Part shown: positions 10,425-17,008 of the stretch, piece by piece
Position numbering within the stretch: position 1 is the first letter of the stretch
Layout of the letters: each line of letters begins with the position of its first letter
NCBI RefSeq assembly: GCF_000026045.1
Contig: NC_007426.1
Span: forward strand, 372,001 to 436,000
DNA from: Natronomonas pharaonis DSM 2160
GTDB taxonomy: Archaea > Halobacteriota > Halobacteria > Halobacteriales > Haloarculaceae
DNA length: 64,000 nucleotides
Direction: 5' to 3'
The notes under the pieces: model-generated
Database searches by the model: none
Told to the model about the DNA's origin: nothing
What the model saw: only the letters and a program-made list of their open reading frames with translations
Made by a program: the position numbers and the translations under genes

Positions 10425-12065
10425 ATGTCCGACGAAGGCGTAGACAGACGTACGTTCCTCCAGTACGGTGGCACCGCCGCGGCGGCCGCCGCAAGTGTCA
10501 GCGTCGCCGGCTGCAACGGCAATGGCGACGGCAACGGCAACGGAAACGGCACCGGCAACGGCGACGGCGAGCCGGCGACCGGCGAACCTCGAACCTTCGA
10601 CGAGGAGCTGCCGGACGACCCGACACGCGAGGAGCTGCTCGAACACGCCAACGGGATGGCGAACGCCCTCGCGCCCTTCATTTATCTCCACCAGCAGTAC
10701 AGTATCTACGGCGTCAGCGAGGACCTCGATTGGGACGCTCGCGGCGACGAGGACATTCTCGTCCGCGAAATCGACACCGACCGCGAGGAAATAACCATCA
10801 CGCAGGGGACGTTCCCCGGCGCGATGGACCCGCTCGACCACAACGACACGCCGACACACAACGTCCTCAACCAGGCCTACGAGCCGGTTTTGTACCGTGA
10901 CCGCGAGGGCCGGACCGTCGCGCGCATCGCGACTGACTGGGAGCGGCGCGACGAGACGACCGTCGCCTTTGAAGTCCGCGACGGCGTGACCTTCCACAGC
11001 GGCAACGAGATGACGGCCGACGACGTGGCGTTCAGCATCAACCGTGCAAACGACCCCGAGGTCAGCGACCAGGCGGGCGTCATCGGCGCTATCGATGAAG
11101 CTCGCGCTGAGGACGGCGAGGTCGTCGTCGACCTCGAGGCCGTCGTGCCGACCATCTTCTTCAACCTGACCGCCTTCGGCCGCGTCATGGAGCGGGAATG
11201 GACCGAAGCCCGCGACCAGGGCGACCTCAACGACGGCGAGGTAAACGGAACCGGTCCCTACGAACTCGAAAACTTCGCCGACGACGTCGAAGTCGCCTAC
11301 GAGCGGTTCGACGACTACTGGGACGAAAACCCCGGTCCGGACCGTGTGGTCTTCAACGCTGTCTCGGACGAAGGAACCCGCGTCGACCGGCTCATCGCCG
11401 ACGAGAGCGACCTCGTGACCAACGTCAACCCCCGCGATGTCGGCGAGCTGCAGGGCGCTGACGGCGTCGAGCCACAGGGCGTCCCCAGCATCCGCAACAT
11501 CTTCATCGTGATGAACGATGCCAAGGAGCCCTTCGACAGCCTCGAGTTCCGACAGGCGATGAACTATGCGGTCGACGTTGAGGCCATCATCGACGGCATC
11601 CTCGACGAGTTCGGCGAGCTAACGAGCCAACCGACGCTGGAGGGACACTTCGGCCACAACCCGCGAGTCGACCCGTATCCGTACGACCCTGACCAGGCTG
11701 AGGCACTGGTCGAGGAAAGCGGCCACGCGGACGTCGAAATAGAGGTTCATACGACGACCGGCCGCTATCTCCGCGACACCGATATCGCCGAGACGGTCGC
11801 CGGCCAGATAGACGACCTCGACAACGTGTCGGCGACTGCCGAACTGCGCGACACGCAGTCGCTGTTCAACGAATCCCAGACCGGCAATCAGGATGACTCA
11901 CCGGCCATCTTCCTCATGGGCTGGAGCAACCCGACTCTCGATGCCGACTACGCGATGACGCCGTGGTTCGACCCCGAAGACGCCTTCGGCATCGCCCACT
12001 TCAGCGACGACGACCTGCTTGAACTGCTCCACCGTGCGCAGGAGACGCCCTTAGAGGAAGAGTAA
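10425..12065 (+). CDS. dppA: Peptide ABC transporter substrate-binding lipoprotein (family 5), apparently circularly permuted
   Basis: A 546-residue binding protein. RRTFLQYGG is a Tat signal motif and VAGC (Cys30) a lipobox, so it is exported folded and lipid-anchored. An Asn/Gly/Asp linker (about residues 31-50) follows. The main domain starts near residue 122 (ITITQGTFPGAMDPLD) and contains the family 5 motif FEVRDGVTFHSGNEMTADDV. The C-terminus stops at LLELLHRAQETPLEEE, about 60-80 residues earlier than usual. The missing part appears instead at residues 61-117 (TREELLEHA, IYLHQQYSIYGVSEDLDW), before the main domain. This suggests circular permutation. The first 70 bp downstream do not encode the missing tail in any frame. 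It is the first gene of the importer cluster 10425-17008. Confidence 0.9.
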   Translation: MSDEGVDRRTFLQYGGTAAAAAASVSVAGCNGNGDGNGNGNGTGNGDGEPATGEPRTFDEELPDDPTREELLEHANGMANALAPFIYLHQQYSIYGVSEDLDWDARGDEDILVREIDTDREEITITQGTFPGAMDPLDHNDTPTHNVLNQAYEPVLYRDREGRTVARIATDWERRDETTVAFEVRDGVTFHSGNEMTADDVAFSINRANDPEVSDQAGVIGAIDEARAEDGEVVVDLEAVVPTIFFNLTAFGRVMEREWTEARDQGDLNDGEVNGTGPYELENFADDVEVAYERFDDYWDENPGPDRVVFNAVSDEGTRVDRLIADESDLVTNVNPRDVGELQGADGVEPQGVPSIRNIFIVMNDAKEPFDSLEFRQAMNYAVDVEAIIDGILDEFGELTSQPTLEGHFGHNPRVDPYPYDPDQAEALVEESGHADVEIEVHTTTGRYLRDTDIAETVAGQIDDLDNVSATAELRDTQSLFNESQTGNQDDSPAIFLMGWSNPTLDADYAMTPWFDPEDAFGIAHFSDDDLLELLHRAQETPLEEE

Positions 12066-12135: not shown

Positions 12136-13125
12136 ATGTCGCTCGCAAAGTTCTTGGCGAAGCGCACCCTCCAGGGGTTGTTCGTCATCTGGGGAGTCGT
12201 GACTGTCGTCTTCTTCCTGCGGTTTCTGACCCCAGGCGACCCCACTATCGCGCTGACCCCGCCCGATGTCAGCGACGAGCGCCGCGCGGAACTCGCGGCC
12301 GAACTCGGGCTTAACGACCCGCTACACGTACAGTACACCGATTACCTCTTCCAACTCGCGCGCGGCGACCTCGGTGAGGCGATGGCGTCGGGACGGAACG
12401 CAAACACCGTCCTGCTTGAGCGGCTGCCCGCAACCATCGAACTCGCCGTCGCAGCGACAGTCGTCGCTGTCATCATCGCCATCCCGCTCGGCGTCATCAG
12501 CGCCCGGCGGCGACACGAGCCGGCTGACTACGGCGCGACGCTGTTTTCGCTTGTCGGCATCTCCACGCCGAACTTCTGGCTCGGCATCATGCTCATCATC
12601 TTCGTTGCCGTGAGCGTCGACTTCCTGCCGACCGGCGGTCGACATATCACCTTTACCGCCGCGTGGGGCGGGTTACTCTTCGAAGGCGATATCTCCGGTG
12701 TCGGCACGTGGTTTGCACAGCTGATACTGCCGGCTATCGCCTTGGGAACCTACTTCACGGCGCTGATTACCCGCTTGACACGGAGCGGGATGCTCGAAGA
12801 ACTCGGCAAGGCCTACGTGAAAGCCTGTCGAGCGAAGGGGCTACCGGAGACGCTGACGATGTACAAACACGTCCTCCGGAACACGCTGATCCCGATACTC
12901 ACCGTGCTCGGGCTCCAACTGGGGACGCTCATCGGCGGCGCTATCATCACTGAGGAGGTGTTCGCGTGGCCGGGGCTCGGGACGCTGCTCATCGACGCCA
13001 TCGGCGAGCGTGACTGGACGCTGATTCAGGGTTCGATTATCATCATCGGCATCGGCTTTGTCGTCATCAACATCGCCGTCGACGCGCTGTATGCGTATCT
13101 CGACCCACGGGTGAGCGCAGAATGA
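12136..13125 (+). CDS. dppB: Peptide ABC transporter permease DppB
   Basis: A 329-residue permease of normal length with six transmembrane segments. It begins LAKFLAKRTLQGLFVIWGV, carries the family segment FLRFLTPGDPT, and has the ATPase-docking EAA loop near LGKAYVKACRAKGLPE. It forms the channel together with DppC. Its stop overlaps the dppC start by 4 bp (ATGA), showing tight coupling. The transported substrate is not readable; dipeptides, oligopeptides or nickel are possible in this family. Confidence 0.95.
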   Translation: MSLAKFLAKRTLQGLFVIWGVVTVVFFLRFLTPGDPTIALTPPDVSDERRAELAAELGLNDPLHVQYTDYLFQLARGDLGEAMASGRNANTVLLERLPATIELAVAATVVAVIIAIPLGVISARRRHEPADYGATLFSLVGISTPNFWLGIMLIIFVAVSVDFLPTGGRHITFTAAWGGLLFEGDISGVGTWFAQLILPAIALGTYFTALITRLTRSGMLEELGKAYVKACRAKGLPETLTMYKHVLRNTLIPILTVLGLQLGTLIGGAIITEEVFAWPGLGTLLIDAIGERDWTLIQGSIIIIGIGFVVINIAVDALYAYLDPRVSAE

Positions 13126-14195
13126 TATCCGACCGCGCGAAACAGAGCCTCTCGTTGGAGCTCAAGCGCAGCCGGCTGGCCCAGATCGGCGTCGCCATCA
13201 TGGCCGTGATGTTCGTGGTGACGATGTTTGCCCCGCTTTTTGCCCCGCACGACCCCGAGCAGCAACGGGTCGGCACCGGTGACACCGAGGACATGACCGA
13301 CCTGCCGCCGGTCGGGTTCAGCACGACGGCAAACGAGACCCGGCTCGTTGATGGGGAGTTCCAGACACAGCAGGTCGAAATCAACGCCAACAGCTCCCAC
13401 GTCCTCGGCACGAACACCCGGGGGCAGGATGTCCTTTCGAGAGTCATCTATGGCGGCCGAGTATCGCTGCTTGTCGGGCTGCTCGGTGCGGCTATCGCCG
13501 CGCTCGTCGGCGTTCCGTACGGACTGGCCGCCGGCTACTTCAGCGGTCGCGTCGACGATGCGCTGATGCGCGGCGCCGACATCATGCTGGCGTTTCCCTC
13601 CCTGGTGTTGGCTATCGCGCTCGTCGGCGTCTTCCGGGAGACGGATTTCCACACCATGGAGCTGACAGACCCCTTCGTTGTGGCCGCACAATCGGAGACG
13701 ATACCCAACTGGCTCATCCCACGGGCCGGCCACGTCGCCAGTATGCCGGAGTCGGTGACGTTCCCCGTGACGGTCACGCTCGTCGTTGCGCTTGTCAACT
13801 GGGTGTGGTTCGCCCGGGTGGCCCGTGGTGAGGCGATGAGCATCCGCAGCGAGGAGTATGTCACCGCCGCAAAGAGTCTCGGTGCGAGCAACTGGACCAT
13901 CATCCGCAAGCACGTCCTGCCGAACAGCATCACGCCGATTATCGTGCTGGCGACGATTCAGGTCGCTTTCATCATCCTGCTGGAGAGTGCGCTTTCGTTC
14001 CTCGGCTTCTCGGGGACGACGCTGACGTGGGGCCAAGACATCGCCCGCGGCCAGTCGGACCAGCGTGCCCAGTGGTGGATTGCGACCGTGCCGGGACTCG
14101 CCATCGTGTTGGCGGTTATCGGCGTCAACCTCATCGGCGACTGGCTCCGGGATGCCCTCGACCCGGATATCGAAGGCGAGGGCGGTGGTGTCTGA
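13122..14195 (+). CDS. dppC: Peptide ABC transporter permease DppC with enlarged outer loops
   Basis: A 357-residue permease; the family is usually around 290-310 residues. Family signatures are VLGTNTRGQDVLSRVIYGGR, ADIMLAFPSLVLAIALV and the EAA loop around SEEYVTAAKSLGASNWTIIR. The extra length lies in two places. The first is between the first hydrophobic segment and VLGTN (about residues 45-85). The second is between VLAIALVGVF and the next membrane segment (about residues 170-205, containing HTMELTDPF and NWLIPRAGH). By topology both face the outside, where the binding protein docks. It overlaps dppB by 4 bp and is followed after one base by dppD. Confidence 0.93.
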   Translation: MISDRAKQSLSLELKRSRLAQIGVAIMAVMFVVTMFAPLFAPHDPEQQRVGTGDTEDMTDLPPVGFSTTANETRLVDGEFQTQQVEINANSSHVLGTNTRGQDVLSRVIYGGRVSLLVGLLGAAIAALVGVPYGLAAGYFSGRVDDALMRGADIMLAFPSLVLAIALVGVFRETDFHTMELTDPFVVAAQSETIPNWLIPRAGHVASMPESVTFPVTVTLVVALVNWVWFARVARGEAMSIRSEEYVTAAKSLGASNWTIIRKHVLPNSITPIIVLATIQVAFIILLESALSFLGFSGTTLTWGQDIARGQSDQRAQWWIATVPGLAIVLAVIGVNLIGDWLRDALDPDIEGEGGGV

Positions 14196-14196
14196 A

Positions 14197-15363
14197 ATGA
14201 GTGAAACGAAACTCGACGTTCGTGACCTACAGACCCGGTTTTACACTGATGACGGTCAGGTAAACGCCGTCGACGGCGTCTCCTTTACCGTCGAATCCGG
14301 CGAGGTGTTCGGCATCGTCGGCGAGTCCGGCTCCGGCAAGAGCGTGACCGCCCTCTCGCTTATCGACCTCGTCGAGTCACCCGGACGTATCGACGGCGGC
14401 GAAATCTGGTTCCGGTCGCCAGAGATGGCCGACCGGCTCGCGGACGACTCGCCCGCGGCCGTCGACGGCGAGATGGTCGATATCCGGCAACTCGACGACC
14501 GAGAGCGGCGGTCGCTCCGCGGCGCGGAGTTTGCGACCATCTTCCAGGACCCGATGAGCAGCTTCAATCCCTCGCTGACCGTCGGCGAACAGATCGCCGA
14601 GGCCGTCGAGGCCCAAAAGCGGGCGCAAGCGAACCCACGCTCGACACGCTCGCGAACGCAGGGATACGGATTTGCGAGCTTCGTCGCTGACAGCCTGCTG
14701 CCGCGTCGCGACTACGTCAGCGAGGACGCCACGACCCGCGCGGTCGAACTGCTTGAGCTTGTGGGTATCCCCGACCCGGCCGACCGGGCCGACGAGTATC
14801 CGCATCAGTTCTCCGGCGGTATGCTCCAGCGGGCGATGATTGCGCAGGCGCTCGCCAGCGAGCCGTCGGTGCTCGTTGCCGACGAGCCGACGACCGCCCT
14901 CGACGTGACGATTCAGGCGCAGGTGCTCGACCTGCTGGCCGACCTGCAGGCGGAAACCGGGATGACGACCGTGCTCATCACGCATAACCTCGGTGTCGTC
15001 GCCCGGATGTGTGACCGCGTCGGCGTGATGTACGCCGGTGAACTCGTCGAGCGGGGCACGCTCGGCGAGGTGTTCGACGAGTCCGTCCACCCCTACACCG
15101 AGGGCCTGCTCGGCTCTATCCCCGACCTCGATGGCGAGAGCGGGCGACTGAGCCCCATCGAGGGGAACGTCCCCAGCCTCATCGACTCGGAGATGGAAAG
15201 CCGGTGTTACTTCGCCGACCGCTGTCCGAAGGCAATGGAGGAGTGTCTGGACAAACCGCCCGAATACGAGGTGACAGACGACCATACGGCGATGTGTTAT
15301 CTCGCCGACCACGACTACGACCCCGGCAATGCGCTCCCGGAGGGATACTTCGATGCAGAATAA
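14197..15363 (+). CDS. dppD: Peptide ABC transporter ATP-binding protein DppD
   Basis: A 388-residue ATPase. Walker A is GESGSGKS (about residues 42-49), the Q-loop is in [12 protein letters not shown], the signature is FSGGML, Walker B is VLVADEP and the switch histidine is in ITHNLG. The C-terminus carries the oligopeptide-type extension with [19 protein letters not shown], and later MCYL. I chose the ATG at 14197, two bases after the dppC stop; the upstream part of the open frame is within dppC. It would pair with DppF as a heterodimer. Confidence 0.95.
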
Positions 15364-17008
15364 GCCACGCGCCGACGAACCGGACCGCAAGCCGGCCGAA
15401 GCGGCAGCCGGCGACATCGACGGACAGCCGCTTGTCCGCGTTCGGGACCTGCAGAAACATTTCGACGCCGAGGACTCACTGCTGGACCGACTGTTCGGCG
15501 AAACGACGAACCCCGTCCGGGCCGTCGACGGCCTCAGCTTCGACATCCGTGAGGGCGAAACGCTGGGTCTGGTCGGCGAGTCCGGCTGTGGGAAATCGAC
15601 CACCGGCGAGACGATACTCCAGTTGTTGGAGCCGACCGGTGGAACCGTCGAGTTCGACGGCGAGAACATTGTCGAAAGCGACGACCTGTTCCGGTTCCGT
15701 CGGCGGGCCGGCGTCGTCTTTCAGGACCCGTTCTCCAGCCTCGACCCCCGGATGACCATCGGGGAGTCGATTCGCCAGCCGCTCGACATCCACGGGTGGC
15801 CGTGGCCCGAGGACGGCGTCGAGACGACCGCCGAGGCCCCTGCTACCGGCGTCGACACCGCCGTTACCGTCGCCGACGACATCCACCGGGTGCCCGGCGT
15901 CGAGCCGGTCGACGGCGTCGTCTCGGTGTCGCTGTCGGTCGAGCGCGGGCCGGCCGACGCCCCCAACGACGTGTCCCCCGAGACGACCGTCGACCCGGAC
16001 GCTGCCGAGGGGTACGTGACGGTCAACGACGAACCGGTCGCCGTCGGCGTCGACGAGCGGCTCGAACTGTCCCTTTCCGGCGGTGACGCCCTCGACATCG
16101 AGGTGCGTGTCGGCCGCTCGGATACACAGCTCCGCCGGGAACGGGTCGCCGACCTGATGGAGCGGGTCGGACTCTCGGCCGACCAGTTGAACCGCTATCC
16201 GTCGGAGTTCTCCGGCGGCCAGCGCCAGCGGGTCGGTATTGCCCGTGCGCTCGCGCTCGACCCGGAGTTCATCGTCCTCGACGAGCCGACAAGCGCCCTC
16301 GATGTCAGCGTTCAGGCCCAGATTCTCAACCTGTTGGAGGAGCTACAGGACGACTTCGACCTGACGTATCTGTTCATCAGCCACGACCTGAGCGTTATCC
16401 GGCATATCTGCGACCGGGTTGCGGTGATGTATCTCGGCGAAATCGTCGAGCTCGCGCCGACGGAAGCGCTGTTTGCCGACCCACAGCATCCCTACACCGA
16501 GGCGCTGTTAGAGAGCGTTCCGCGAGCCTCGACCGAAGAAAAGGAACGCGATGTCGACCCGCTGGCTGGGGACGTTCCGTCGCCACGGAACCCGCCGTCC
16601 GGCTGTCGGTTCCGCACTCGCTGTCCCAAAATCATCCCGCCGGATGATGTCGAGCTATCGCAGGCGGCCTACCGCGCTGTCGTCGACCTCCGCGAGCGCG
16701 TCGAGAGCCGCGACATCACCGTCGAGGGTGTCGGCGAGGAGCTCTCGGGCACCGACGATGTCGTCGATGAACTCGAATCACGGCTGCTTGGCGACAGCTC
16801 GATACCCGAACAGGAACGGTCCCACATCCGAGCAGCGCTCGAACGGGTCGCCGATGAGGAATGGGAAGCGGCCGCCGAAGCGCTTCGGGACCGCTATGAG
16901 AGTATCTGTGAGACGCACGCCCCCGACGGCGACCGGGCGGCGTGTCACCTCAACGGGCTGCCGGACGACATCGACGCCAGTGCTGTCGACCGGGACGAAC
17001 GGCGGTAG
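15353..17008 (+). CDS. dppF: Peptide ABC transporter ATP-binding protein DppF with two large inserts
   Basis: A 551-residue ATPase, against about 330 for common DppF proteins. Walker [10 protein letters not shown] is at residues 75-83, the Q-loop at about 124, signature SGGQR at 287-291, Walker B IVLDEP at 307-312 and the H-loop histidine at about 344. Residues about 152-258, between the Q-loop and the signature, are an acidic beta-rich insert ([23 protein letters not shown]). A second helical insert, about residues 431-517, separates CRFRTRCP from the [15 protein letters not shown] end that is normally close to it. All catalytic motifs are intact. The gene overlaps dppD by 11 bp. Confidence 0.93.

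Follow-up and report, generated by a model that had tools for sequence, protein, structure and literature searches.

The locus raises a simple question: what has become of a family-5 substrate-binding lipoprotein whose chain ends before the domain should be complete? The gene lies in a 64,000-nucleotide stretch of the Natronomonas pharaonis DSM 2160 genome, here called the window, and its parts and neighbors are listed in Table 1. An earlier note, made from the sequence alone, had described an open reading frame with the C-terminal end LLELLHRAQETPLEEE and an N-terminal segment TREELLEHA...IYLHQQYSIYGVSEDLDW, and all three are found where it had placed them. It had also claimed that the protein ends before the usual helix and strand of family-5 proteins, which held, and that 60-80 residues were missing from the tail, which held in part, since the moved piece is slightly shorter, at about 54 residues (63-116).

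Table 1. Parts of the permuted binding-protein gene and the genes of its importer, in window coordinates.
Feature	Coordinates	Strand	Basis
Permuted family-5 substrate-binding lipoprotein, 546 aa plus stop	10425..12065	+	SBP_bac_5 222.5 bits
Residues 1-30: twin-arginine signal (DRRTFLQ) and lipobox ending at Cys30	10425..10514	+	sequence; motifs in homologues
Residues 31-62: linker rich in Gly and Asn, with clade-A junction motif PRTFDEELP	10515..10610	+	sequence
Residues 63-116: relocated segment (C-terminal helix and strand of the canonical form)	10611..10772	+	blastp, segment profile, model helix 68-82 / strand 91-98
Residues 117-121: short join, old C-terminus to old N-terminus	10773..10787	+	alignment
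Residues 122-546: core; new C-terminus in loop between last two helices	10788..12062	+	blastp, alignment, structure alignment
DppB-type permease, same importer	12136..13125	+	gene order, Pfam, DppB tree
DppC-type permease	13122..14195	+	Pfam
DppD-type ATPase (start taken at MSETK)	14197..15363	+	Pfam
DppF-type ATPase	15329..17008	+	Pfam

The core of the protein scores far above the curated Pfam cut-off of 32.4 bits for SBP_bac_5 (PF00496; 222.5 bits), and two permeases and two ATPases of the peptide/nickel (Dpp/Opp) type stand 3′ of its gene, at 12136-17008. Since this permease/ATPase set is complete, the product is read as the binding protein of a complete importer, very likely one of the dipeptide/oligopeptide type (DppABCDF-like), a reading made with no functional data. 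None of the NCBIfam equivalogs for DppA, NikA, and OppA reached its cut-off (the best gave 134.6 bits against 600), and hence no substrate can be assigned. The genome of N. pharaonis itself holds one other substantial match over the core, at about 30% identity. As a separate observation on this operon, the DppF-type ATPase has an apparent insertion of roughly 100 residues between Walker A and the signature (protein residues ~145-255), with the 137-position ABC_tran profile stretched over residues 67-322, and, besides the apparent insertion, a long C-terminal extension.

The canonical chain order, in which the C-terminal helix and strand follow the core, is absent from the N. pharaonis protein; both elements precede the core, and the protein is therefore classed as a permuted variant of SBP_bac_5. 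By blastp against L037, a canonical homologue from Natronoglomus mannanivorans, residues 122-531 align to 84-490 at 65% identity, and residues 63-116 align to the C-terminal end, 501-554, at 63% (E 2e-16). Searches with the whole protein gave two HSPs in the same swapped order for L039, L027, L050, L053, and others, and colinear matches for L008-L012, L015, and others. A profile of the segment finds a single match per complete protein, mostly at E 1e-22 to 1e-29; among 152 distinct homologues the match is N-terminal in 54, C-terminal in 98, and at both ends in none. Two haloarchaeal proteins with weak full-length matches (L272 and L273) showed no significant segment match and were not counted, and six rows (L060, L078, L106, L107, L112, and L133) were excluded from the trees for want of a single full-length copy with a segment match, several of them being cut by contig ends or split. 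There are thus homologues that have every part of the domain but in the other cyclic order, which is circular permutation at the sequence level. Moreover, the permuted and canonical versions are 60-86% identical and, in haloarchaea, occupy the same kind of operon, with the same DppB-type permease gene directly 3′ of both.

It might be argued that the protein is merely a truncated family-5 lobe behind an unrelated or decorative N-terminal stretch, as Pfam gives one domain and nothing in residues 58-132. However, the segment is 49-63% identical by blastp to the true C-termini of canonical homologues, which already refutes this reading, and it is conserved across dozens of permuted proteins; a truncated lobe can be almost entirely dismissed. 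The Pfam "Middle" model for SBP_bac_5 stops short of the C-terminal helix/strand region, so that a change of order is invisible to it. In a PDB sequence search, residues 68-105 matched the C-terminal end of AccA (chain 441-478), weakly when taken alone (2.8 bits). The central claim of the earlier note, that the C-terminal piece was moved to the front, therefore holds at the sequence level, by comparison with many homologues, as does its expectation that the segment would best match family-5 C-terminal ends (canonical homologues and, weakly, AccA); a segment that failed to align there would have refuted the claim, and this was not the case.

Alignment puts the cut in a loop between two helices, where the canonical form runs ...LIEQAQSEP/DPQEREQILQQ... 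(the slash marks the cut). On the permuted side, the C-terminus reads ...LLHRAQETPLEEE and the segment starts ...ELPDDPTREELLEHA..., and the old ends are linked by a few residues (DEDILVREIDTDREEITITQG). All the haloarchaeal permuted proteins are cut in this same loop. We put at about 0.95 the probability that the N. pharaonis protein is circularly permuted relative to family 5, with its termini joined and the cut in the inter-helix loop; its fold and ligand binding are predicted only.

Structure prediction agrees with the permutation, as a model result of moderate confidence with no coordinates. AlphaFold2, given a 26-row alignment of the permuted protein, returned a mean pLDDT of 72 and a pTM of 0.60, with the segment forming a helix (68-82) and a strand (91-98); for canonical L037 the values were 86 and 0.80, with a helix at 496-513 and a strand at 516-529 in the segment region. 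Against PDB chains (VIA), the L037 model aligns end to end, from 74 to 550, and reaches the chain ends (Z 42), whereas the permuted model aligns over residues 118-546 only (Z 24) and, on NikZ/DppA-type chains of 490-507 residues, gets no further than about residue 436-454. That the alignment stops at the cut is exactly what a sequential aligner should give for a permuted pair. Packing of the segment in its original place is inferred, and thus the claim that a complete fold is kept rests on prediction alone. For the same reason, sequence cannot exclude a domain swap, in which the N-terminal segment would complete a second monomer and not its own core. Against this, only about five residues separate segment from core, which fits nearby termini and makes a fit in cis simpler, and canonical relatives carry the same segment in one chain; we consider a swap very unlikely and retain the permutation within a single chain.

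In the permuted protein, a few residues bridge the old N- and C-termini, the new opening lies in the loop that connects two C-terminal helices, and the secretion signal, lipobox, and flexible linker remain at the N-terminus. How this came about is a matter of inference; the putative origin is a tandem duplication in frame, with both ends trimmed afterwards. All 54 permuted haloarchaeal homologues have RRx[FLV] and lipobox-like motifs, with signal, lipobox, and linker kept N-terminal, and therefore it is the attachment point of the tether that moves, in this view leaving the first strand for the pair of C-terminal helices. It is likely that the fold, the ligand cleft, and the permease contacts are kept and that the tether-to-domain junction is changed, with fold, binding, function, and the effect on the tether all inferred. 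Permutation by duplication predicts in-frame tandem duplicates as intermediates (review PMC3320104). One archaeal locus, L271 (G525:C18:9500-15500), carries on its + strand a 1026-aa ORF in which two complete family-5 binding proteins are fused in frame, with a single signal and lipobox and no second signal. The expected kind of intermediate hence exists in archaea; none of the permuted proteins in this set descends from L271. Beside the permuted and canonical haloarchaeal genes, no intermediates with a duplicated segment and no leftover segment copies were found, and so the duplication route is not shown for haloarchaea.

In the core trees, the permuted haloarchaeal proteins fall into two regions. 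Clade A (the N. pharaonis protein, L008-L012, and L150) lies beside canonical L037, L039, L179, L038, L027, L023, L020, and L036; clade B, from other genera and families, lies beside canonical L109, L052, L110, L114, L184, L185, and others. Monophyly of all permuted rows is rejected on the core (dlnL 352, p-AU 8.5e-5), and clade B as a single group is not (p 0.30). The segment tree requires two changes, with A as one clade (98/91) and B as one side of a branch (70/84), and the segments of each sit among canonical segments of their own kind. In the DppB tree, the clade-A permuted members and their canonical neighbors form one group with support of 100. Two origins are the best reading of the core, segment, and permease trees, and a likely one. 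The alternative is a single ancient haloarchaeal permutation, after which canonical order was restored many times or cores were exchanged by recombination. In its favor are the shared cut loop of clades A and B, the survival of a single permuted clade on the segment (p-AU 0.06, not firmly rejected on only 54 columns), and the conflict signals inside clade A. Against it are the rejection on the core, the segments and linked permeases that also track the A/B split, the roughly ten reversions needed on the core tree, and the canonical order of outgroup rows and PDB family-5 proteins. We find it improbable and keep to two origins.

Within clade A, the core trees part the N. pharaonis protein and L150 from L008-L012 (p-AU 0.0486 without L150, and 0.006 in a second test). 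The junction motif R.[YF]D.[E]L is present in all seven clade-A proteins, whose segments form one clade; outside clade A it flanks no permuted segment, and the canonical proteins of the set lack it altogether. On balance, we favor one event followed by core recombination over two events, and the matter is unsettled. As an observation in its own right, the conflict between the core trees and the segment plus junction motif (the N. pharaonis protein, L150, and L008-L012 versus L037, L039, and L179) hints that permuted and canonical genes have recombined; when the core was divided into thirds, the trees gave weak conflict throughout clade A and no clean breakpoint. The N-terminal arrangement occurs in about 39 of the 392 genomes of an order-wide draw (a count from listed rows), in families coded f1, f4, f5, f7, f10, and f15. 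The earlier note saw one case, and several are now found; to its question whether haloarchaeal relatives share the arrangement, the answer is that some do and many do not, the arrangement having probably arisen more than once.

A phylum-wide search added permuted family-5 proteins from f21, a non-haloarchaeal family of the same phylum, with two further cut sites. In L219 (G603, - strand, 588 aa), core positions 314-410 plus the segment lie at 35-165, ahead of core 10-315 at 214-531, and the tail is a Pro/Thr-rich linker with a C-terminal PGF...RRRR end, resembling a PGF-CTERM anchor. In a PDB search with a piece of L219, residues 170-493 of that piece paired with 6ofq 33-369 and residues 3-142 with OppA 361-498. 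Cut at about the same place, L228-L230 (G544, G536, and G583) retain the N-terminal lipobox and are only about 15% diverged from canonical siblings. L228 and canonical L232, of the same genus code, are 86% identical in the core and 83% in the segment, and in the DNA of G544 and G520 two blocks are cleanly swapped at about 79% identity, with unrelated flanks. L219 shares 34% identity with L228, and 37% and 34% with the canonical form; being no nearer to L228, it looks like a separate event. A third arrangement is found in L242-L244 (G575, G483, and G489; ORFs of 706-766 aa), which follow Yersinia DppA (5f1q) in the order 458-530, 29-125, 198-448; the two shorter pieces are weak singly, yet they agree in both DppAs shown. 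These three proteins are cut somewhat before the haloarchaeal site, and they have extra strand-like stretches at both new ends as well as core insertions. Taken together, haloarchaea and f21 likely account for about five events at three cut sites; for f21, the counts were drawn from identities and profile order without trees. As for bacteria, some plasmid tblastn matches spanned over 90% of the junction queries (H1 from Rhizobium, H31, and H38-H44, two of the H31/H38-H44 set being from E. coli), but they rest on about 30% identity and were rejected as permuted cases. In H1, the only one inspected, the match begins 15 codons before the annotated start of the binding protein, so that chance most likely accounts for its upstream part.

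A bolder reading, towards which we lean without great assurance, is that archaeal family-5 proteins permute repeatedly through in-frame tandem duplicates, with at least two origins at one haloarchaeal loop and three, spread over two more sites, in the other family, and that the tether may thereby be shifted in evolution without change to the transporter. Close permuted/canonical pairs, cut sites that recur, a tandem duplicate, and what look like several origins open to test some questions for which single cases have usually had to serve: by what route permutations arise, why they fall in certain loops, and whether the position of the tether matters for an importer. There is also a caution for annotators, in that domain models limited to the middle of a fold conceal rearrangements of this kind.

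Among known systems, the family-5 proteins DppA, OppA, NikA, and AccA (SBP_bac_5) resemble the N. pharaonis protein in core sequence, predicted core fold, and adjoining permease/ATPase genes, and many share the lipoprotein tether; they differ in chain order, the C-terminal helix and strand coming first here. No permuted family-5 binding protein was found in the literature searched, which was confined to open-licence papers. Natural circular permutations are often isolated and old, with faint sequence similarity. The tandem-duplicate intermediate predicted from permutation by duplication, as in saposin/swaposin and the DNA methyltransferases (PMC3320104), is matched by L271; unlike in those systems, an export signal and linker are fixed N-terminally here, and extra trimming would be needed. 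TpMglB-2 (Tp0684) of Treponema pallidum is a circularly permuted "Type Ic / cluster Bc" glucose-binding protein, membrane-tethered, which keeps ligand binding and closure/conformational change, and its authors propose tethering as a reason for the permutation (PMC4990184). Like the N. pharaonis protein, it is a natural permutation in a tethered ABC binding protein. It differs in belonging to another class (type I, cluster B), a sugar-binding fold absent from the sequence and fold matches listed for the N. pharaonis protein, which are family-5 type proteins, and in that the permuted part shares only 13% identity with its counterpart; neither close canonical siblings nor repeated events are known to be described in PMC4990184. 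TpMglB-2 is thus the nearest precedent, and recurrence beside closely similar canonical siblings is the surprising part.
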